Below are positions 2,531 to 34,363 of a stretch of DNA of 35,906 nt, one piece after another. The DNA is taken from positions 1-35,906 of the forward strand of contig JAGWOC010000028.1 of the NCBI GenBank assembly GCA_028872875.1, written 5' to 3'. The position numbers and the translations under genes were made by a program. Numbering within the stretch: the stretch's first letter is position 1; each line of letters starts with the position of its first letter. Under the pieces are notes generated by a model. It did no database searches. It saw nothing but the letters and a program-made list of their open reading frames with translations, and was not told the DNA's origin. Source of the stretch: Chloroflexota bacterium (GTDB taxonomy: Bacteria; Chloroflexota; Dehalococcoidia; DSTF01; JACRBR01).

Positions 2531-2735
2531 GAACGTCTGTGCGACGTGGTGGTTGCGCCGCGCACGTCGGGGCCCACCGGCGCATCGGTGCGGCAGCGTC
2601 GTCGCTCCTTGTCGCTGTGCGTAATGCCGCACCCGCTGTACCGTTGTTCTTGCTGACGACGTAGAGCAGGCGCCGCCGCGCGTGCCGGTACCAGCGCCGT
2701 CGGGATGCGGAACAGCAGTGGACAGGGGATTGTCG

Positions 2736-4226
2736 ATGCTCACGAGGTGGCTGCAGGATCAATCCGGAAGGACCGTCGTCGGCCTCGGGCTGAGCATCGC
2801 GCTCGTTGCTGGCTCGGTCTTGACGGCCGTCGCGCTCACCGCGGGCACCGCGCTGGCGTGGCACTACACCTACGGCTGCGACCAGAACGGCAACGTGGTC
2901 GGGACGATCACCTTCCCGAAGAACACGGCGCCGTTCTCCGTCATCCTGCAGGACCACGTGCCGGCCGACGCCCACTTCAAGGACGTCCCCGGCGCCACCG
3001 AGCTGATCACGCCCACCGCCAACCAGACCTCGGCACCCTTCACGCTGTCGACAGCAAACGTGCGCCCGGACGCGAACTCGCTGCGCATCGTCAACTCCGC
3101 CACGAACGAGAAGAGCGACAGCTTCCCGCCCTGCGGCGGACAGGTGTTGCCCACCGCCACGAGCACCGGCACGGGCACGGCCACCAGCACCGCAACAGCC
3201 GTCGCCACCAGCACGCCGTCTACGCAACCGTGCGAGACCGCCGGCGCGACGAAGACGCCCGAGTCCGGCGAGACGCAGACGCCGGAGGCAACGCAAACTT
3301 CCGAGTCCGACCACACGCACACGCCCGAGGCGGACAAGACGCAGACGCCGGAGTCCGAGCACACGCACACGCCCGAGGCGGACAAGACGCAGACGCCGGA
3401 GTCCGAGCACACGCACACGCCCGAGGCGGAGAAGACGCAGACGCCGGAGTCCGAGCACACGCACACGCCCGAGGCGACGGAGACCCCGGAACCGACTCAG
3501 ACCGCCGCACCCACGTGCACACCGCAGCCGACGCAGACCGCCGAGGCGACGCACACGCCGCAGGCGACGACGACGAACACCGCCATGCCGACGGCGACCA
3601 ACACCGCTGAATCGACCGAGACGCCGCAAGCCACAGAGACGCCGGAAGCTACGGAGACGCCGGAAGCGACGGCGACCAGCACGGCGATTCCCACGGCGAC
3701 CAACACATCCGTGCCGACGGCGACGAACACCGCCGTGCCGACGGCGACGAACACCGCCGTGCCGACGGCGACGAACACCGCCGTGCCGACGGCGACGAAC
3801 ACCGCCGTGCCGACGGCGACCAACACCGCCGTGCCGACGGCGACCAACACCGCCGTGCCGACGGCGACCAACACCGCGCAGCCGACGGCGACCAACACCG
3901 CGCAGCCGACGGCGACCAACACGGCAGTGCCGACGGCGACGAACACGGTTACGGTGCAGACCGCGACGAGCACCGTTACCGTCCAGACGGCGACGAGCAC
4001 GGCCGCTGCCGCCACGGCGACGCCGCCAGCACCGACGCCGACGCTCGTTTCCCTCGTCCTCGGCGCCACGCCGCCCGCGCGCGGCCGGCCGACGACGGGG
4101 CTGCCAAACACGGGCGTGGGCGCACTCGACAGCACGGGCGGGCGCATGCTGCTGGCGCTGCTCGCGCTCGCCGCGGCCGGCGGCCTGGCCGGCGTCGGAC
4201 TCGGGATGCGCCGCCGCAAGAACTGA
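2736..4226 (+). CDS. Secreted Thr/Pro-rich repeat protein with LPNTG sortase anchor
   Basis: A 496-residue surface protein. A basic N-terminus ([12 protein letters not shown]) and hydrophobic stretch at residues ~13-40 form a signal peptide. Residues ~42-145 are a small unrecognised domain (with GCDQNGN near its start and PPCGG near its end). Then come about 310 residues almost wholly of Thr, Pro, Ala, Glu and Asn: a 16-residue His/Thr/Glu repeat, then an 8-residue AVPTATNT repeat. The C-terminus has LPNTG at 456-460, a hydrophobic span and the tail RRRKN, a classic sortase cell-wall sorting signal. It is probably a stalk or mucin-like wall protein, a likely O-glycosylation target (inference). 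No sortase gene is in the window. Start ATG at 2736 has AGGGGAT a few bases upstream. A strong terminator follows. Confidence 0.85.
3303..3477 (+). repeat. 48-bp tandem repeat inside the LPNTG protein gene
   Basis: The string CACACGCACACGCCCGAGG recurs at 3312, 3360, 3408 and 3456, a period of exactly 48 bp (16 codons, unit of the form [16 protein letters not shown]). Copies are nearly identical at DNA level, so the array was expanded recently or is being homogenised. The unit is rich in His, Glu and Asp. Confidence 0.95.
3684..3947 (+). repeat. 24-bp tandem repeat (A[VQ]PTATNT) inside the LPNTG protein gene
   Basis: Eleven consecutive 24-bp units, starting at 3684, 3708, 3732 and so on to 3924, encode [16 protein letters not shown], six AVPTATNT, two AQPTATNT and one AVPTATNT. 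Differences are mostly third-base changes. Such units are common in Chloroflexota surface proteins. Confidence 0.95.
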
Positions 4227-5943: not shown

Positions 5944-7530
5944 CTACGAGAACTTCGTGACGCGCGCCGAGAGGATGTTCGGGATCGCCGCCAGCTCCTC
6001 GACCTGCTCCGGCGCGATCGGGTCGTCGATGCCGACCGCCATCAGCGCCTTCCCCCGCACCGCCGTGCGCCCCACGCGCATAAAGCTGATGTTGATATCG
6101 TGTTTCCCCAGGAACGTCCCCACCGCGCCGATCATCCCCGGACGGTCCTGGTTCTCGCACAGCAGCAGCCAGCCGTCGCCGGGCGGGATATCCACCCAGA
6201 AGTCGTTGATGGCGACGATGTGCGGCCCGTCGTGCGCGATCGTCCCCGTCACGTCGGTGTCGCCCGCGCTCGTGTGCACGTGCACGCGCACGAGGTTCGC
6301 GTACACCTCTTCCGCCGGGCCCTTGCGCTCGACGATCTTCATCCCCCGCGTCTCCGCGACGAGGTTCGCGTTCACGATCGTCACGTTCTCTTCGCTCACG
6401 GGCCCGAGCATCCCCTTGATCACCGCCGCCCGCAGGGCCGTCGTGTCGTGGTGCGCGATGTCCCCCAGGTAATCGATTTCGATGTTGCCCATCTGACCCG
6501 GCGCGAGCTGCGCCGCCAGCGACGCGGTCTTCTCCGCGACGGGGATGTACGGCGCCAGCACGCTCATCGTCTCCGCCGCGATCATCGGCGCGTTCACGGC
6601 GTACTGCGCCGGCTCTCCGCGCAGGACCGCCAGGATCTGCTTCGCGACGTCGACCGCCACGCGCTCCTGCGCCTCCCTCGTCGAAGCGCCGAGGTGCGGC
6701 GTCACGATGATCCGGTCGTGGTGCAGCACCGGGCTCGCCATGTCCGGCGGCTCCTGCGGAAAGACGTCGAGCGCCGCCCCGGCGACCCGCCCTTCGTCCA
6801 CCGCGCGCACGAGCGCGTCGATGTCCACGAGGTCCCCGCGCGCCGTGTTGACGAGCCGCAGTGAAGGCTGCACCTTGCGCAACTCCGCGTCTCCGATGAG
6901 GTGGCGCGTCTGTGCCGTCAGCACCGTGTGCAAGGTCAGGAAATCGGCGCGGGCCAGCAGGTCGTCGAGCGACGCGGCCAGCTCGACGCCGAGCACGGCG
7001 CCGCGCTCCGGCGACACGAACGGGTCGTACGCCACCACCGTCATGTCGAGCCCCTTCGCCCGCCGCGCCACCTCCGAACCCACCTGGCCGAGCCCGACCA
7101 CGCCCAGCGTCTTCCCGCGCACCTCCACGCCGATGAACTTCGAGCGCTTCCACTCGCCCGCCTTCAGCGACGCGTTCGCCTCCGGGATGTGCCGCGCCAG
7201 CGCCAGCATCAGCCCCACCGCGTGTTCCGCGGCCGAGATCGTGTTGCCGAGCGGCGCGTTGACGACGATCACGCCGCGCGCCGTCGCCGCCGCCAGGTCG
7301 ATGTTGTCCACGCCGACGCCAGCGCGCCCCACCGCCTGGAGCTGCTTCGCCGCAGCGAACACGGCCGCCGTCACCTTCGTTTCGCTCCGCACGACGAGCG
7401 CGTGGTACGCCGGGATCGCCGCGATCAGCTCCTCGCGCGAGAGGCCGGTGCGCACGTCGACGCCGGCCTCGCCGCGCAGCAGCTCAACGCCGTCCGCCGC
7501 GATCGGGTCCGCTACCAGGATCTTCTTCAT
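5944..7530 (-). CDS. serA: D-3-phosphoglycerate dehydrogenase
   Basis: First step of serine synthesis: NAD-dependent oxidation of 3-phosphoglycerate to phosphohydroxypyruvate. The 528 residues match the long SerA form: catalytic/NAD domain with VVGLGQVGSEVA (Rossmann Gly motif), substrate-binding RAGVGVDNIDL, catalytic Arg in NTARGD, catalytic His in TPHLGAST; then the intervening ASB domain and a C-terminal ACT domain (ENQDRPGMIGAVGTFLGKHDINI), which often senses serine. It lies downstream of a class V aminotransferase on the same strand, which suits a serine pathway cluster. There is no Shine-Dalgarno; TAACCT six bases before the ATG may be a -10 box giving a second, leaderless transcript (inference). 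Confidence 0.95.
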   Translation of the reverse strand: MKKILVADPIAADGVELLRGEAGVDVRTGLSREELIAAIPAYHALVVRSETKVTAAVFAAAKQLQAVGRAGVGVDNIDLAAATARGVIVVNAPLGNTISAAEHAVGLMLALARHIPEANASLKAGEWKRSKFIGVEVRGKTLGVVGLGQVGSEVARRAKGLDMTVVAYDPFVSPERGAVLGVELAASLDDLLARADFLTLHTVLTAQTRHLIGDAELRKVQPSLRLVNTARGDLVDIDALVRAVDEGRVAGAALDVFPQEPPDMASPVLHHDRIIVTPHLGASTREAQERVAVDVAKQILAVLRGEPAQYAVNAPMIAAETMSVLAPYIPVAEKTASLAAQLAPGQMGNIEIDYLGDIAHHDTTALRAAVIKGMLGPVSEENVTIVNANLVAETRGMKIVERKGPAEEVYANLVRVHVHTSAGDTDVTGTIAHDGPHIVAINDFWVDIPPGDGWLLLCENQDRPGMIGAVGTFLGKHDINISFMRVGRTAVRGKALMAVGIDDPIAPEQVEELAAIPNILSARVTKFS

Positions 7531-7555
7531 ATCGGCAGGTTATCGGGGTGCGCCG

Positions 7556-7690
7556 CTACGCGACAGTCAATCGCGCGCCTGCGGCCGCGGGGATCAGGAG
7601 CGATTTATCATCGTGCCCGATGTTCCAGAGCGCGAGCGTCCAGTCGTTCTCGTAGTCGTAGACCTCGTAGAACCTGCCGTCGTGGCACAG
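7556..7690 (-). CDS. Small unidentified coding frame between the aminotransferase gene and serA
   Basis: A 44-codon open frame ending in TAG at 7556-7558. It encodes a protein-like peptide (FYEVYDYENDWTLALWN, then HDDKSLLIPAAAGARLTVA). Third codon positions are overwhelmingly G or C, as in true genes here, and it fills most of the 179-base gap. No ATG, GTG or TTG start is visible in frame; the first plausible codon is a CTG at 7690 without a good Shine-Dalgarno. It may be a small gene with an unusual start, the surviving 3' end of a decayed gene, or a frameshifted piece. I do not recognise the family. Confidence 0.4.
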   Translation of the reverse strand: MCHDGRFYEVYDYENDWTLALWNIGHDDKSLLIPAAAGARLTVA

Positions 7691-7709
7691 ATCCCGAGGG
7701 CGCCCGCGC

Positions 7710-8816
7710 CTATGCCGCGACTGGCGCGAAGCCCACCCGCGGCAGCGCCAGCCGCAGCGCGTCCAGGCACGCCTGGATGTCCGCTTCCGTCACGAGGCCC
7801 AGGTGGCCGATGCGGAAGATCTTGCCCGCGAGCGGGCCCTGGCCGCCGGCGAGCACCGTGTTGTACTCCGTCCGCATCAGCTTGTTCAGCGCCGCGCCGT
7901 CGACGCCGTCCGGCACCCGCACCGCCGTCACCGTGTTCGAGGCCACGCGCTCGTCCGCCAGCAGCTTGAGCCCCAGCGCCTTGACGCCGTCGCGCGTCAT
8001 CTGCCCGATGCGCGCGTGGCGCGCGTGGGTCCGCGTCAGCCCCTCCGCCAGCAGCGTCCGCAGCGCGACGTCCATCGCGAAGTACACGCTCACGGCCGGC
8101 GTCCACGGCGTCTGGCCCTTCTCCAGGAAGCTCTTGGCCTTCGTGTAGTCGAAGTAGTAGCGCGGGCTCTTCGCCGCCGCGATCGCCTCCCACGCCCGCT
8201 TGCTCACCGACACCATCGCCATCCCCGGCGGCACCATCCAGCCCTTCTGCGAGCCCGTCAGCACCACATCGAGGTCCCACGCGTCCACCGGCAGCGGCAG
8301 CGAGCCCAGGCTGCTGATCGCGTCCACCAGCACCAGGATCTCCGGCCGCGCGCCGCGGATCGCCTTTGCGATCGCCGCGAGGTCGTTCGTCACGCCGGTC
8401 GAGGTCTCGTTGTGCGTGACCAGCACGGCCTTGTAGCTCGCATCCTTCCTGAGCGCCACTGACACCCGCTCCGGGTCGGCCGCCGTGCCCTGCTCGAAGT
8501 CCAGCGTGTCCACGTCCACCCCGTAGGTACGGCAGATGTCGGCGAAGCGGTTGCCGAAGACGCCGATCGACACGACCAGCGCCCGGTCCCCCGGCGACAG
8601 CGTGTTCACCACGGCCGACTCCATCGCCCCGGTGCCCGCCGAGGTCAGCGTCAGTACGTCGTTCTTCGTGTCGAACAGCGTCTTCAGGCCGTCGGTGATG
8701 CGCCGGACGATCTCCGCGAACTCGGGGCCGCGGTGGTTGATCATCTGGCGCGACATCGCCTGGAGCACGTCGTCGGGGCAGGGGGTAGGGCCGGGGATGC
8801 GCAGGTTCACGGACAC
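7710..8816 (-). CDS. Class V aminotransferase (alanine/serine-glyoxylate type), probable serine pathway transaminase
   Basis: A 368-residue PLP enzyme of the alanine:glyoxylate / serine:glyoxylate aminotransferase family. Visible are the N-terminal RIPGPTPCPDDVL, the INHRGPEF segment, the cofactor-contacting TSAGTGAMES, the Asp in LVDAISSLGS, and the PLP Lys in LTGSQKGWMVPPG. Its position just ahead of serA suggests that it serves as the phosphohydroxypyruvate or glyoxylate transaminase in place of SerC, as such pairs do in several bacteria and archaea (inference). The start is the GTG at 8816, with AAGGAG eight bases upstream. A good sigma-70 promoter lies about 70 bases upstream. Confidence 0.9.
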   Translation of the reverse strand: MSVNLRIPGPTPCPDDVLQAMSRQMINHRGPEFAEIVRRITDGLKTLFDTKNDVLTLTSAGTGAMESAVVNTLSPGDRALVVSIGVFGNRFADICRTYGVDVDTLDFEQGTAADPERVSVALRKDASYKAVLVTHNETSTGVTNDLAAIAKAIRGARPEILVLVDAISSLGSLPLPVDAWDLDVVLTGSQKGWMVPPGMAMVSVSKRAWEAIAAAKSPRYYFDYTKAKSFLEKGQTPWTPAVSVYFAMDVALRTLLAEGLTRTHARHARIGQMTRDGVKALGLKLLADERVASNTVTAVRVPDGVDGAALNKLMRTEYNTVLAGGQGPLAGKIFRIGHLGLVTEADIQACLDALRLALPRVGFAPVAA

Positions 8817-8882
8817 AGGGGGCTCCTTCTCGAGGGCCAGGCCAACCGGAGGAGATTGTGCACGCCCTCACATAGTGCGCTC

Positions 8883-8911
8883 ATGATAGGTCAGCCCGTG
8901 GACTCGATCAA
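8883..8911 (-). promoter_or_regulatory. Sigma-70-like promoter of the aminotransferase gene
   Basis: On the minus strand TTGATC, a 17-base spacer and TATCAT. The predicted start gives a leader of about 60 bases containing the AAGGAG of the aminotransferase gene. Confidence 0.6.
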
Positions 8912-8966
8912 GAATCGGCGGACGCGCGCGCCGCACGCGCGCCGCCGCACCCGCTGGACGTCAGAA

Positions 8967-8991
8967 GGGGCACGACCATCGGTCGCGCCCC
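8967..8991 (-). terminator. Terminator of the pilin genes
   Basis: On the minus strand GGGGCGCGACC, loop GAT, GGTCGTGCCCC: an 11-bp stem with one G-U pair, followed by TTCTG. The G-U pair exists only in the minus-strand RNA, which fits a terminator for the pilin operon ending at 9023. Confidence 0.65.
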
Positions 8992-9022
8992 TCGCTGCGG
9001 CTTCGCTGGACGATGCTGTCTC

Positions 9023-9256
9023 TTAGCAGGCGCTGCTCGACGGTGCGTTGTTGAGGCAGTTTGTCGCGCCGTTGAACGAGCCGACGATGGCGTTCCGGAA
9101 GAGGAATCCCGCACCGACGACCACAGCCACCGCGACGACGGCCATGATCAGTCCGTACTCGGCCAGCGTCTGGCCCTCTTCATCCTGGAACTTCGATGCG
9201 ATCGCCTGGCCGAGACTCTGGATGGCCACAGCAATGCGAAGGGTCAGTGTGTTCAT
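9023..9256 (-). CDS. Flp-type pilin (second copy)
   Basis: A 77-residue class IVb Flp pilin, the small subunit of Tad pili. A 28-residue leader precedes the prepilin peptidase site in EEGQTLAEYGLIMAVVAVAV (cleavage after the Gly expected), followed by the single hydrophobic helix and a short tail with two Cys, NCLNNAPSSSAC, that could form a disulfide loop. The start ATG follows AAGGGGGGAG. It is the second gene of a tandem pair; the tail is identical in protein to that of the first copy although the DNA differs at several third positions. No other Tad genes are in the window. Confidence 0.88.
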   Translation of the reverse strand: MNTLTLRIAVAIQSLGQAIASKFQDEEGQTLAEYGLIMAVVAVAVVVGAGFLFRNAIVGSFNGATNCLNNAPSSSAC

Positions 9257-9279
9257 AATCTCCCCCCTTGGATGTCCTG

Positions 9280-9314
9280 CTGGCGGGGTGCGGCACGGAG
9301 CCGCGCCCCGCCAG
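9280..9314 (-). other. Stem-loop between the two pilin genes
   Basis: CTGGCGGGG.GCGGC pairs with GCCGC.CCCCGCCAG around a five-base loop, with one mismatch. It lies in the 83-base gap between the pilin genes. It could slow decay of the upstream pilin message or partly end transcription so that the two pilins are made in different amounts (inference). Confidence 0.55.
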
Positions 9315-9339
9315 CTTGCTCTGCGGATGGATCAGTGGC

Positions 9340-9576
9340 TTAGCAGGCGCTGCTGGATGGTGCGTTGTTCAGACAGTTCGTCGCGCCCTTGAACGAGTTG
9401 ACGATGGCGTTCCGGAAGATGAAGCCCGCGCCCACGACGACGGCCACGGCGATGACCGCCATGATCAGGCCGTACTCCGCCAGCGTCTGCCCGTCCTCAT
9501 CCTGGAACTTCGCCTCGATCGCCTGTCCGATGCTCTGCAGGGCAACGACCACCCGGAGAGCCAGTTCGTTGATCAT
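9340..9576 (-). CDS. Flp-type pilin (first copy)
   Basis: A 78-residue paralogue of the pilin downstream, with the same layout: leader, DEDGQTLAEYGLIMAVIAVAV cleavage and helix region, and the tail NCLNNAPSSSAC with its two Cys. The start ATG at 9576 is preferred to an upstream in-frame codon because AAGGGGG lies a few bases before it, matching the second copy. It is probably the first gene of the operon, with a long leader back toward 9750. The facing genes on the + strand encode GT-C-like membrane proteins, so pilin glycosylation is possible but unproven. Confidence 0.88.
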   Translation of the reverse strand: MINELALRVVVALQSIGQAIEAKFQDEDGQTLAEYGLIMAVIAVAVVVGAGFIFRNAIVNSFKGATNCLNNAPSSSAC

Positions 9577-9752
9577 TCCCGTTCCCCCTTGGTTGGAACT
9601 ACACACCCGACCGGGGGCGATCGGGTTCCCTGCCTGCCTCTGGTCCTCTACGAGGGGTAGAAGGACGCCGCCCGGCCCCCGGACTGCGGGCGTCCAGCGC
9701 GTGCCGCCGGCCCTCCCGGCGCTGCTCGCGCTGCCAACTAGAGTCTCGGCAC

Positions 9753-9887: not shown

Positions 9888-11552
9888 TTGCAGTTGCGCG
9901 CGCGTCCTGCATCGCGGCCGGAAGACGCACCGCTTCGACTCATCACGCCCGGTGCCGGCGTTGAGACGGACATCTCCCCGCGCGCCGCCGCGCTCCTGCT
10001 GCTCGGTGCACTCGCCGTCGGCTCCCTCGTGCGGGCGTCCTTCGTCCTCAGCTCCGGATTCCCCCTGAACGATGGAGGCATGTTCGTCGCGATGGTGCGC
10101 GACCTCCAGGCGTCGGCCTACCGCTTGCCCGCCTTCACGTCGTACAACGCCGAACACCTGCCCTTCGCCTATCCTCCGCTCGGCTTCTACCTGGCCGGCG
10201 TCCTCAACGACCTGACCGGCGCTTCGCTGACGCAGGTCCTGCGGTTCGTCCCCCTTGCGTGCAGTGCGCTCGCCGTCCCCGCCTTCTACCTGCTGGCGCG
10301 CGAGATGCTGCGCACACGCCAGGCCGTCGCCGTCGCGGTCTGGCTCTTCGCCTTCCTGCCCGCGTCCATCGCCTGGATGATCATGGGTGGCGGCCTCACC
10401 CGCGCACCGGGCTACCTCTTCGCGATCCTCACCCTCTCTGCCGTGCGTCGCATGTACCGCCGTCGCACGGCGTCCTCCGCGCTCCTCGTCGTCGTCGTGT
10501 CCTCGCTCGCCGTGCTCAGCCACCTCGAGATGGCCTGGTTTGCCGCCATCAGCGCCGCGGTGTTCCTCCTCGCGTTCGGCCGCGACCGGCGCTCCCTCGT
10601 CCTCACGGCCGCCGCCGCCGCAGGCGTCGCCGCGCTGACCGCGCCGTGGTGGCTCACGGTCGTCATCCAGCACGGCCCTGGGCCGTTCCTCGCCGCCGCG
10701 TCGTCGACGTCGTCATCGCCGTGGCAGCCGCTGACGCTCCTCGTCCAGTTCGGCGTCACCGGCGAGACGCTCTTCGCGCTCACCGGCGCGCTCGCCCTCC
10801 TTGGCATCGCCGCCTGCCTGGCGACGCGCCAGTACCTGCTGCCGTCGTGGCTGCTCGCGCTGGCCGTATTCGACCAGCGCGGCTTCCGCACCAGCGCGAC
10901 CGTCGTCGTGGCGCTGCTGGCGGCCGTCGCCGTGTGCGACGTGGTGCTCCCGCTCGCAGCGAAGTGGTCCCTGCCGTCGTCGCTCGCGTCTTCCGCCCGC
11001 CACGGGCCGCGTGGCGCACCGCGCTGGCTCGCGCCGGCCATGCTTGCGCTTGCCCTCGCGTATCCCGCGTTCTCGGTCCTGGCGACGCCGTCGAAGGTCC
11101 TCACCGGCATGAGCACGGACGAGCGGGCGGCGATGGCGTGGGTGCGCACGAACACGCCGCCGGCCGCCCGCTTCGTCGTCGTCAGCGGCGACGCCTGGTC
11201 GGTGGACCGCACGTCCGAGTGGTTCCCGGTGCTGGCCGGCCGCCGCAGCCTGGCGACCGTACAGGGCACCGAGTGGCTGCCCGGCGGCGCATATCACCGC
11301 AGGATCCGCCAGTATCAGACGCTCCAGGACTGCGCCGTGGCGGACGCCGCCTGTCTCGCCTCGTGGTCGGCCGGCAGCGGCGAGCGGTTCGATGATGTCT
11401 ACATCCCCAGGCTGTCGCCCAGGGCTGACACCACAAGCGGCGCGCCATGCTGCGCACCGCTCATCGCCGCCCTGCGCGCCGACCCACGCTACGCCGTGCT
11501 CTACGACGGCCCCGGCGCCGTCGTCTTCGCGCACCTGGCGGCAGGAGGATAG
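9888..11552 (+). CDS. Multi-pass membrane protein, GT-C glycosyltransferase-like (paralogue 1)
   Basis: About 554 residues with roughly ten hydrophobic spans and a C-terminal soluble region. The first external loop holds an acidic motif typical of GT-C enzymes (GFPLNDGGMFVAMVRDLQ), followed by HLPFAYPPLGFYLAG, as in PMT-like family 39 proteins that use lipid-linked sugars. The C-terminal domain contains RTSEWFPVLAGRRSLATVQG and CCAPLIAALRADP. It is paralogous to the next gene over its whole length. The start is uncertain: TTG at 9888 has GGGGAT upstream; an in-frame TTG at 9786 would add 34 Pro/Ala-rich residues. Function as a glycosyltransferase is inferred from architecture. Confidence 0.75.
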   Translation: MQLRARPASRPEDAPLRLITPGAGVETDISPRAAALLLLGALAVGSLVRASFVLSSGFPLNDGGMFVAMVRDLQASAYRLPAFTSYNAEHLPFAYPPLGFYLAGVLNDLTGASLTQVLRFVPLACSALAVPAFYLLAREMLRTRQAVAVAVWLFAFLPASIAWMIMGGGLTRAPGYLFAILTLSAVRRMYRRRTASSALLVVVVSSLAVLSHLEMAWFAAISAAVFLLAFGRDRRSLVLTAAAAAGVAALTAPWWLTVVIQHGPGPFLAAASSTSSSPWQPLTLLVQFGVTGETLFALTGALALLGIAACLATRQYLLPSWLLALAVFDQRGFRTSATVVVALLAAVAVCDVVLPLAAKWSLPSSLASSARHGPRGAPRWLAPAMLALALAYPAFSVLATPSKVLTGMSTDERAAMAWVRTNTPPAARFVVVSGDAWSVDRTSEWFPVLAGRRSLATVQGTEWLPGGAYHRRIRQYQTLQDCAVADAACLASWSAGSGERFDDVYIPRLSPRADTTSGAPCCAPLIAALRADPRYAVLYDGPGAVVFAHLAAGG

Positions 11553-31988: not shown

Positions 31989-32468
31989 ATGACGACGCCC
32001 GACAACGAAGCCACGATCGAGATCCAGCACCTCATCCGGGACTTCAAGCCGCTGGACGGCGACCTGCTCGGCGCCCTCCACGCCGTCCAGCACCGCTATG
32101 GCTACATCCCGAAGATCGCCCTCGGCGTCGTCGCCCACCAGCTCCGCCTCAGCGAGGCGAAGGTCTACGGCGCCGCCAGTTACTACAGCGAGTTCCGCCT
32201 GACGCCGCCGCCCGGGACCCTGATCGGCTGGTGCAGCGGCCCCGCCTGCCACCTCAAGGGCGGCGACCACGTGCGCCGCATCCTCGAGTGCCAGCTCGGC
32301 ATCGGCATGGAGCAGAACACGGAGGACAACCGCGTCGGCCTGCACCTCGCGCAGTGCAACGGCACCTGCGAGCGCGCGCCGCAGGTCTGGGTGGACGGCG
32401 AGGTCGTTGGGCCGCTCACGGCCAACGCCACCCTCGACCTCGTGCGCAAGCTGAAGGACGGCGCCTGA
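31989..32468 (+). CDS. NuoE-like [2Fe-2S] thioredoxin-fold subunit
   Basis: 159 residues of the 24-kDa / NuoE family. The N-terminal helical part has GALHAVQHRYGYIPK and LRLSEAKVYGAASYYSEF; the [2Fe-2S] ligands are in WCSGPAC (C-x4-C) and LAQCNGTC (C-x3-C), followed by APQVWVDGEVVGPL. It would pass electrons between the FMN of its NuoF-like partner and another carrier. It overlaps the partner gene by one base (TGATG). An in-frame GTG five codons upstream overlaps the -10 box and is less likely to be the start. No other complex I, hydrogenase or formate dehydrogenase gene is nearby. Confidence 0.9.
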   Translation: MTTPDNEATIEIQHLIRDFKPLDGDLLGALHAVQHRYGYIPKIALGVVAHQLRLSEAKVYGAASYYSEFRLTPPPGTLIGWCSGPACHLKGGDHVRRILECQLGIGMEQNTEDNRVGLHLAQCNGTCERAPQVWVDGEVVGPLTANATLDLVRKLKDGA

Positions 32469-34363
32469 TGCCCACCTACGGCGAGCTGCGCGCTGCCGCG
32501 GAACAGGCGTGGAAGCCCATCGCCGAACCGCCGCGCCCGCTCTTCGCCGTCTCGATCAACACCTCGTCGCTTGCCGCCGGCGCGCAGGCGACGCTCGACG
32601 CGCTGCGCGGCCTCGCCGACGCCGGCGGCTTCGACGTCATGCGCACCGGCGACACCGGCTTCGCCTGGGCGGAGCCGGTCGTGCAGGTCGTCAAGCCAGG
32701 CGGTCAGCGCGTCCTCTACGGCCCCGTCACCGCCGAGAGGGCCGCCGCCTTCGCGCAGGCCGCGGCCACCGGCGTCGCCACGGAGTTTGCTGTCGGCGTC
32801 ATCTCGGGTGATGCCGTCGCCGGCGTGCCGATGCTCGCCGACCTGCCGTGGATGAAGCTCCAGGTCCGCTGGATGATGGAGCACTGCGGCGTCATCGACC
32901 CGGAGGACATCGACCACTACATCGCGAACGGGGGCTACGCCCAGTTCGACCAGGCGCGCGCGCACAGCCAGGATGAGCTGATCGAGATCATCAAGGGCTC
33001 GACGCTGCGCGGCCGCTCCGGCTCGTTCTTCTCGACCGGCACCAAGTGGAGCTTCCTGCAGGGCGCGAAGGCCGAGCCCAAGTACCTCGTCTGCAACGCC
33101 GACGAGGGCGACCCCGGCGCCTGGGTCAACCGCGTCGTCCTCGAGAGCGACCCGCACCGGATGCTCGAAGGCATGCTGATCGGGGCGTACTGCACCGGCG
33201 CCACCTACGGCTGGATCTACATCCGCGACGAGTACCCTCTCGCCGCCGCGCGGGTCGGCAAGGCGATCGAGCAGGCGCGCGCGAAGGGCATCCTGGGCGC
33301 GGATGCGCTCGGCACCGGCGTCCGCTTCGATGCGGAGGTCGTGCGGGGCGCCGGCTCCTACGTCTGCGGCGACGAGACCGGGCTGATCGCGTCGGTCAAC
33401 GACGGCCGCGGCATGCCCAAGATCAAGCCACCGTTCCCGGCCCAGAGCGGCGTGCTCGACCAGCCCACCAACGTCAACAACGTCGAGACATACACGGCCG
33501 TCACCACGCTCCTGCGCCTTGGCGCCGATGCGTACAGCAGCGTCGGCACCGAGGTGAACCGCGGCACGAAGATGTTCACCGTTTCGGGCGATGTCGCGAA
33601 AACCGGCTGCCTCGAGGTGCCGTTTGGCACGAAGGTGCGCGACCTGCTCGAAGCCGCGGGCGGCGTCGCGGGCGGGCGGTCGCTGAAGGCGCTCCAGCAG
33701 GGCGGCCCGCTCTCCGGCATGCTGCCGGCGCAGATCGCGCTCGACCTCCCGCTCGAGCCCGAGCCGTTCCGGCCGCTGGGCGCCGGCATGGGCGGCGGCG
33801 GCCTCGTGTTCGTCGACGACTGGGCCTGCGTCGTCGACCTGAACCTGATGTTCGCGCACTTCCTGGAGGATGAATCATGCGCGCGCTGCACGACCTGCCG
33901 GGGCGGCAACCAGCGGATGGTCGAGATCTTCCGCCGCGTCTCCCGCGGTGAAGCGCAGCCCACGGACCCCGAGCACCTCACGTCGCTCGCCGCGTCGTTC
34001 CAGTACTCCAACTGCTTCCACGGCACGCTCTCGCCGACGATCATGAACAACACGATGCGGTTCTTCCGAGACGAGTACGACGCCCACGCCCTCGAACACC
34101 GCTGCCCGGCGAAGGTCTGCGAGGCGCTGATCCGCTACACCGTCGCAAACCAGACCGAAGCCGTCGCACATGCCGCGGCCGTCTGTCCGACGGGGGCGAT
34201 CGCACGGGACGGCGGCGCCTGGGCGATCGACGACACAAGGTGCATCCGCTGCGATGCCTGCCGCGAGGTCGCGCCCGGCGACATCGTCATCGAGGACCGC
34301 TACAAGGACGCGATCCCACTGCGCGCCATCGAGACCGCGTCCGTCGCCCGCGCGGGCGGCTAA
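32468..34363 (+). CDS. NuoF-like NADH:acceptor oxidoreductase subunit with degenerate accessory Fe-S domains
   Basis: 631 residues with HydB-like order: an N-terminal thioredoxin-like ferredoxin domain (~1-130), the 51-kDa FMN/NADH core, a [4Fe-4S] domain and a C-terminal ferredoxin domain. Core blocks: YLVCNADEGDPGAWVNR, GAGSYVCGDETGL, KPPFPAQSGVLDQPTNVNNV and ESCARCTTCRGG plus a later SNC for the N3-type cluster. The usual FMN loop GRGGAGFPTG reads GRSGSFFSTG. The N-terminal domain has no Cys, so no [2Fe-2S]. The last domain keeps only CPTGAI (~573) and CIRCDAC (~592), the ligands of a single [4Fe-4S]. Together with the NuoE-like subunit it probably forms a diaphorase; the partner enzyme is not in the window. 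Confidence 0.88.
   Translation: MPTYGELRAAAEQAWKPIAEPPRPLFAVSINTSSLAAGAQATLDALRGLADAGGFDVMRTGDTGFAWAEPVVQVVKPGGQRVLYGPVTAERAAAFAQAAATGVATEFAVGVISGDAVAGVPMLADLPWMKLQVRWMMEHCGVIDPEDIDHYIANGGYAQFDQARAHSQDELIEIIKGSTLRGRSGSFFSTGTKWSFLQGAKAEPKYLVCNADEGDPGAWVNRVVLESDPHRMLEGMLIGAYCTGATYGWIYIRDEYPLAAARVGKAIEQARAKGILGADALGTGVRFDAEVVRGAGSYVCGDETGLIASVNDGRGMPKIKPPFPAQSGVLDQPTNVNNVETYTAVTTLLRLGADAYSSVGTEVNRGTKMFTVSGDVAKTGCLEVPFGTKVRDLLEAAGGVAGGRSLKALQQGGPLSGMLPAQIALDLPLEPEPFRPLGAGMGGGGLVFVDDWACVVDLNLMFAHFLEDESCARCTTCRGGNQRMVEIFRRVSRGEAQPTDPEHLTSLAASFQYSNCFHGTLSPTIMNNTMRFFRDEYDAHALEHRCPAKVCEALIRYTVANQTEAVAHAAAVCPTGAIARDGGAWAIDDTRCIRCDACREVAPGDIVIEDRYKDAIPLRAIETASVARAGG

Follow-up and report, generated by a model that had tools for sequence, protein, structure and literature searches.

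The locus raises the question of what a NuoF-like protein does, and with which partner, when its C-terminal ferredoxin domain holds the ligands for a single [4Fe-4S] cluster. The stretch of DNA that was analysed, called the window here, comprises 35,906 nucleotides of an uncultured Chloroflexota bacterium with a probably aerobic lifestyle. It carries the genes of a NuoE and a NuoF as a tight two-gene pair, with the ATG of nuoF overlapping the TGA of nuoE (TGATG; Table 1). A converging fmt gene lies 3' of the pair and a divergent acyltransferase-like gene 5' of it, followed farther upstream by LPG-synthase-like and amine-oxidase-like FAD genes. No NuoG, FNR-like, GltD-like or catalytic partner gene was found as a third partner among the neighbours in the window. 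Common descent links the NADH module of complex I with the electron-bifurcating HydABC/Nfn enzymes. The comparisons described below suggest, with a probability of roughly three in four, that NuoE-NuoF is the NADH-input part of a dispersed respiratory complex I and derives from a formerly bifurcating module of the HydABC/NfnABC type (Bfu).

Table 1. Features of the NuoE-NuoF gene pair (positions in the window).
Feature	Position	Strand	Basis and remarks
NuoE / HydC-like subunit, thioredoxin-like [2Fe-2S] protein	31989..32468	+	PF01257 E 4e-32; Cys set CxxxxC...CxxxC intact
NuoF / HydB (BfuB)-like FMN subunit, 631 aa	32468..34363	+	PF01512, PF10531, PF10589; nearest solved: NfnB 9n5u, 9bov, StnB, HydB
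N-terminal thioredoxin-like domain, residues 1-125, Cys-free	32468..32842	+	first Cys is C140; most outgroups 3-4 Cys, clade 0-3
NuoF core, about residues 145-540: FMN/NADH, SLBB, N3 [4Fe-4S] site C471, C474, C477, C516	32900..34087	+	Pfam, alignment
Zn/B2 site residues C454, H540, C546, C551, intact	within 33827..34120	+	alignment; first Cys assigned from alignment
C-terminal ferredoxin-like domain, residues 554-612; one complete [4Fe-4S] ligand set C573, C592, C595, C598; cluster I ligands absent	34127..34303	+	alignment, AlphaFold2

NuoF matched the Pfam profiles of the FMN domain, SLBB and the N3 [4Fe-4S] domain, and weakly that of Fer4 at its C-terminus. It aligned over its full length with solved chains and shared 39-42% identity with the best of them. 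Its cysteines are located at positions 140, 209, 242, 300, 381, 454, 471, 474, 477, 516, 546, 551, 573, 592, 595 and 598. In the alignment with the solved NfnB, StnB and HydB chains, the C-terminal 60 residues form a ferredoxin domain in which C573, C592, C595 and C598 correspond to C4 to C7 of the eight-Cys pattern. The first CxxCxxC is replaced (NQTEAVAHAAAVCP) and so is the eighth Cys (EVAPGD). A preliminary description of the locus had proposed just this, namely that the cluster I ligands are lost and the full cluster II set is kept, and the alignment confirms it. With equivalents of C4-C7 only, the domain is not a 2[4Fe-4S] ferredoxin with eight Cys and two clusters; the predicted structure nevertheless keeps the ferredoxin fold. 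The domain reached a pLDDT of 92-96 in the AlphaFold2 model (37 sequences), and the model superposed on NfnB 9n5u over residues 22-612 with a Z of 49.7 and an rmsd of 2.0 Å (VIA-align). That the tail might not be a ferredoxin domain, named beforehand as a possible refutation, is thus ruled out by the alignment with solved chains, the model and the superposition. As a separate observation, the glycine-rich FMN loop, normally very conserved as GRGGAGFPTG, reads GRSGSFFSTG in this protein (33008-33055, residues 181-196), which is an unusual change; in most other members of the family the same loop reads GHSGSFFSTG.

The distribution of the loss was followed in 60 relatives and three further MAGs, the closest records being Chloroflexi and Dehalococcoidia MAGs. 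Cluster I is absent in 27 proteins including the source NuoF. The other 26 are about 46-94% identical to the source, and nearly all of the 27 represent one protein per species from independent MAG assemblies. An assembly error, the second possible refutation, is ruled out by the recurrence of the same residues in these homologues. In the maximum-likelihood tree, which was midpoint-rooted, the loss falls into one clade (support 100/99) of 28 proteins, namely the 27 with the loss and the NuoF of genome G034, which has no ferredoxin domain. The clade members are Chloroflexota (Dehalococcoidia-related) MAGs, and their genomes contain NuoEF, a NuoI-NuoG pair and a complex I cluster. The eight-Cys state was observed outside the clade in Chloroflexota, Elusimicrobia, Margulisbacteria and the solved bacterial and archaeal enzymes; because these relatives carry eight Cys, loss is the simpler direction than gain. 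Besides the clade, no cluster I loss was detected elsewhere in the phylum among the homologues fetched from a 300-genome draw.

Three of the remaining Cys (C573, C592 and C598) do not vary within the clade, and C595 is conserved to 93%, compared with 59% for the mean column of the ferredoxin domain. C595 is missing in G005 and G007, and in the closed genome G276 the ferredoxin domain is deleted from NuoF. Most members retain the Zn/B2 site, and all have the NuoE Cys intact. Amino acid replacement is faster in the N-terminal and ferredoxin domains than in the NuoF core, and dN/dS was below 1 in all pairs tested. Judged from these alignments, the loss of cluster I is old and fixed, with erosion still continuing in some lineages, and the retained ligand set of the C-terminal domain appears to be held under selection. 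The earlier idea of a coherent loss rather than random decay therefore holds with regard to the single clade and the near-invariant remaining Cys, but erosion continues in G005, G007, G276 and G034. Likewise, the claimed absence of N-terminal Cys applies to the source NuoF, in which residues 1-139 contain none, whereas across the clade it is graded with 0-3 Cys left. Heme-copper oxidase is encoded in all clade genomes except G008 and G052. It also occurs in some eight-Cys outgroups, e.g. G028 and G032; with so loose a link, aerobic life as a straightforward cause of the loss was rejected.

Bifurcating and non-bifurcating β-subunits are separated by Met234, Phe367 and GGPSG in SLBB (T. maritima numbering; PMC7311640). 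The source NuoF has V220 and Y298 at the first two positions and GGPLSG at 412, and does not carry this signature. All three published HydB signatures are missing from the clade; M234 and F367 are absent in all 28 tree-clade members and in G276. In 28 of the 29 eight-Cys homologues outside the clade, both M and F are kept. The exception is the G024 homologue (L029 / L099), which has V, Y and DGPSGG at the signature sites together with all eight Cys, i.e. signature loss without cluster loss, and which counts against the complex I reading. M234 and F367 are likewise missing from four relatives outside the clade that have no ferredoxin domain (G020, G021, G040 and G044). For HydB of A. mobile, residues A202 and M204 given in PMC9304861 were used, whereas F182 did not match the chain numbering and was left out. 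Bifurcation is thus predicted to be absent in the clade.

BfuB proteins have five cluster sites, B1-B5 (PMC9304861, PMC8880783). Of these, the source NuoF has N3 (B1) and the Zn/B2 site intact, while one of B3/B4 and the N-terminal B5 Cys are lost. Not all HydB-specific metal sites are gone, which corrects the preliminary description: the Zn or B2 site retained here is the one described in PMC9499530 and PMC8880783. The C-terminal clusters of solved relatives are the proposed ferredoxin branch (PMC8880783, PMC10482914, PMC9499530). Because they form this branch in the HydABC, NfnABC and Stn structures, their loss would remove the ferredoxin branch and not the wire from NADH to the partner. The ligands of the FMN-to-partner wire (N3 to NuoG) are complete in the source NuoF, and the "shortened electron wire" assumed earlier was inexact, as the lost clusters belong to a side branch. 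The 51K FMN/NADH domain with its N3 ligands and the adjoining NuoE are as required of a complex I NuoF. With 383 bits, the protein stays below the cut-off of 558.65 bits of TIGR01959, the NCBIfam NuoF equivalog, which is a point against the complex I reading but is expected from Bfu ancestry. So it probably works like NuoF though it is not filed as a canonical NuoF.

As another point against the complex I reading, the four remaining Cys hardly vary, which suggests that cluster II still has a function. The one-cluster domain might be a docking site for reduced ferredoxin, which would feed NuoEFG and complex I beside NADH in a non-bifurcating or simplified confurcating manner. In favour of such a port are the conservation of C573, C592, C598 and C595 above the domain mean, the Zn/B2 site kept in most clade members and the binding of ferredoxin proposed for the C-terminal domain of relatives (PMC8880783, PMC10482914). 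However, the three bifurcation-signature residues are all lost, as are the N-terminal Cys, and the absence of C595 in G005 and G007 and of the entire domain in G276 and G034 indicates that a port is not essential to the family. A ferredoxin port is hence considered unlikely, and the related proposal that complex I takes electrons from both NADH and reduced ferredoxin through this single-[4Fe-4S] domain without any bifurcation is judged just as doubtful, if not slightly more so.

If NuoE-NuoF is the NADH-input part of complex I, a NuoG should receive its electrons. Profile searches found a single PF01257 protein in the source genome, the NuoE of the pair, and clade genomes generally contain one or a few NuoE, usually just that of the NuoE-NuoF pair. 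As a rule, they also encode one protein with a weak PF10588 (NADH-G) match, a NuoG of 820-905 aa, which is located directly 3' of a NuoI except in G036. In the source genome, NuoI (6569-7102) and NuoG (7098-9704) are encoded on contig C23 (L123). The one-operon arrangement of BfuABC is therefore not found here: NuoE (BfuC) adjoins NuoF, and NuoG (BfuA) is on this other contig. The 19 NuoI-linked NuoGs form a monophyletic group (100/100) whose subclades correspond to those of the NuoF tree. At the end of C23, about 1.2 kb after the intact NuoG, a fragment with 93% identity to the NuoG end was observed (10891-11217), which is a partial duplication or a strain mixture in the MAG. In G015 and G016 the NuoI-NuoG pair is present and NuoEF was not found in either assembly, which is a gap or a further change and counts against the complex I reading.

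The NuoG-like protein gave similar scores with TIGR01591 (formate dehydrogenase alpha) and with NuoG, neither of them reaching the cut-off, and outgroup operons carry FdhA-like partners with the motif CARLCHxP. NuoEF and the distant NuoG-like protein could accordingly be an NAD-dependent formate dehydrogenase. This Mo/W-ligand Cys motif, present in the outgroups G028 and G032, is however absent from all clade NuoGs with sequence at that position, so that the alpha subunit expected beside an FdsB is missing, and NuoG adjoins NuoI, a complex I subunit. A formate dehydrogenase is thus highly improbable. The NuoG without a Mo/W-ligand motif and with a linked NuoI is the one that complex I would need.

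The outgroup operons comprise genes for NuoE, an eight-Cys NuoF and NuoG/FdhA-like, FNR-like and GltD-like proteins. That of G028 adjoins mutS and mutL, and several clade members have NuoEF next to mutS or mutL, which suggests that clade NuoEF and the G028 operon share an ancestral locus. G039 is intermediate, with cluster I gone and NuoG still adjoining. In G034 (L097), genes for NuoE, the NuoF devoid of a ferredoxin domain and NuoG/FdhA-like, FNR-like and GltD-like proteins are directly followed by a complex I cluster (A, B, C, D, H), possibly an intermediate of the proposed transition. A NuoD cluster that has no linked NuoI is likewise present in G034 and is a further point against the complex I reading.

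Two complex I clusters were identified in the source genome. Cluster 1 (C99) contains A, B, C, D, H, I and J-N, and cluster 2 (C198) has A, C, D, H and J-N but none of B, E, F, G and I. For B and I, this absence from cluster 2 is real, because NuoC directly follows NuoA and NuoJ directly follows NuoH. Such a set (A, C, D, H, J onward, with B, E, F, G and I missing) was found in nine clade genomes including the source and the closed G276, although the cluster contig of G018 ends at NuoK; gene sets were read by tblastn and HMM, and most genomes are MAGs. All nine thus possess a membrane-arm cluster in need of the missing subunits. When NuoD and NuoI were cross-tabulated, most clade genomes showed one NuoD cluster without linked NuoI and a second NuoI beside NuoG. 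The exceptions are G001, G004, G007 and G047 with no NuoG in the assembly, G036, in which B and I form a pair of their own, and G039 with the older arrangement. Neither a NuoI-less NuoD cluster nor a NuoI beside NuoG was detected in the outgroups G028, G032, G042, G048 and G051. In G028, B and I lie inside the orthologous cluster, the subunits of which, except NuoK, score best to source cluster 2 and the unlinked B and I. Exactly two NuoB are present in six clade genomes, and one of the two is encoded in neither cluster. A distance of about 11 kb separates NuoEF from cluster 2 in G276. Since the peripheral-arm Fe-S subunits of cluster 2 are encoded elsewhere, NuoEF, NuoIG and NuoB are the candidate missing parts by elimination. 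Against the complex I reading, none of the clade genomes examined unites NuoEF, NuoIG and the membrane-arm genes in a single operon, and cluster 1 could use the same NADH module.

The standing of NuoE-NuoF as an isolated two-gene unit would also fit a role outside complex I, either as a free-standing NADH diaphorase (FP fragment) or as the NAD-reactive part of a different soluble enzyme; orphan NuoEF operons in Chloroflexi without complex I are known, and their function has been called unclear (PMC3971608). Against such a role, NuoG is co-inherited in an operon with NuoI, the complex I cluster is devoid of exactly the missing subunits, and the NuoF and NuoG trees mirror each other, which makes a free diaphorase distinctly improbable. 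The different partner suspected in the preliminary description is consequently supported and can be named: it would be NuoG, NuoI and complex I, in place of a soluble enzyme of the Nfn or formate dehydrogenase type.

In the preferred complex I reading, the ancestor would have been an electron-bifurcating Bfu module that served both NAD and ferredoxin. The module would have joined complex I via NuoG, now co-encoded with NuoI, and dropped its ferredoxin branch stepwise, with cluster I, the N-terminal cluster and the bifurcation residues gone. In the present enzyme, a hydride from NADH would be transferred to the FMN of NuoF, and single electrons would pass via N3 to NuoG, NuoI, NuoB and finally quinone, while the membrane arm of cluster 2 would pump. 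The C-terminal ferredoxin domain and the N-terminal [2Fe-2S] domain would represent the former ferredoxin branch and be dispensable. The remaining cluster II probably serves folding, contacts between subunits or some minor function, or persists as a leftover site that lies off the electron path or contacts ferredoxin. Physical assembly of these subunits with complex I is predicted from gene content and co-inheritance.

The order of thioredoxin-like domain, FMN/N3 core, Zn/B2 site and ferredoxin domain is shared with NfnB of NfnABC (9bp5/9bov from Caldicellulosiruptor, 9n5u from Thermococcus sibiricus), StnB and HydB, and these long chains gave Z values of 42-50 and 34-42% identity with the source NuoF. 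They differ from it in having the second C-terminal cluster, the N-terminal [2Fe-2S] and M234, F367 and GGPSG, all of which are lost in the source. In contrast to the Bfu family, no FNR-like, GltD-like or catalytic partner adjoins the source locus. The canonical NuoF / Nqo1 has the FMN/NADH and N3 sites, a Tyr at the F367 position and the NuoE partner in common with the source, at about 33-39% core identity, but has neither the additional N-terminal and C-terminal domains nor the Zn/B2 site. FdsB / HoxF and non-bifurcating HydB (PMC7311640, PMC8880783) resemble the source by the absence of the bifurcation residues and of the B2-B5 combination. Their C-terminal ferredoxin clusters are wholly absent, whereas the source NuoF keeps one of two ligand sets. 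That the HydB extras are absent in non-bifurcating enzymes was already known (PMC7311640, PMC8880783). No description was found in the literature searched of a ferredoxin domain whose half-loss is fixed in a clade and goes along with a complex I of dispersed Fe-S subunits.

The closest parallel in architecture is Nuo-Bfu, a predicted 14-subunit complex I with BfuABC in Geobacter and others, which likewise has a Bfu-type NuoEFG on complex I and has been proposed as an intermediate in complex I evolution (PMC9304861). It is encoded in one operon, has the full cluster set and is predicted to bifurcate, whereas the source has dispersed genes and a degenerate, predicted non-bifurcating NuoF. The clade and its relatives provide a graded series in one bacterial class, from eight Cys to four Cys, to the additional loss of C595 and to no domain at all. 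This series is tied to the loss of the proposed bifurcation residues and to a partner change from Nfn/Fdh-type operons to complex I, and it supplies natural variants for asking which parts of HydB bifurcation needs. It also suggests how the orphan NuoEF operons and the "incomplete" complex I clusters of some Chloroflexota fit together.

A second, solitary NuoF-like protein with 35% identity and no NuoE is encoded on another contig of the source genome (C100; L101 8807-10342), where it adjoins hemerythrin-like and thiamine-diphosphate-enzyme-like genes. Elsewhere in the window, a Thr/Pro/Glu-rich repeat protein (2682-4226, plus strand) has a C-terminus resembling that of a sortase-anchored surface protein, with LPNTG, a hydrophobic segment and RRRKN in succession, and two adjoining short genes on the minus strand (9026-9256 and 9343-9606) resemble those of Flp/Fap-type pilins.
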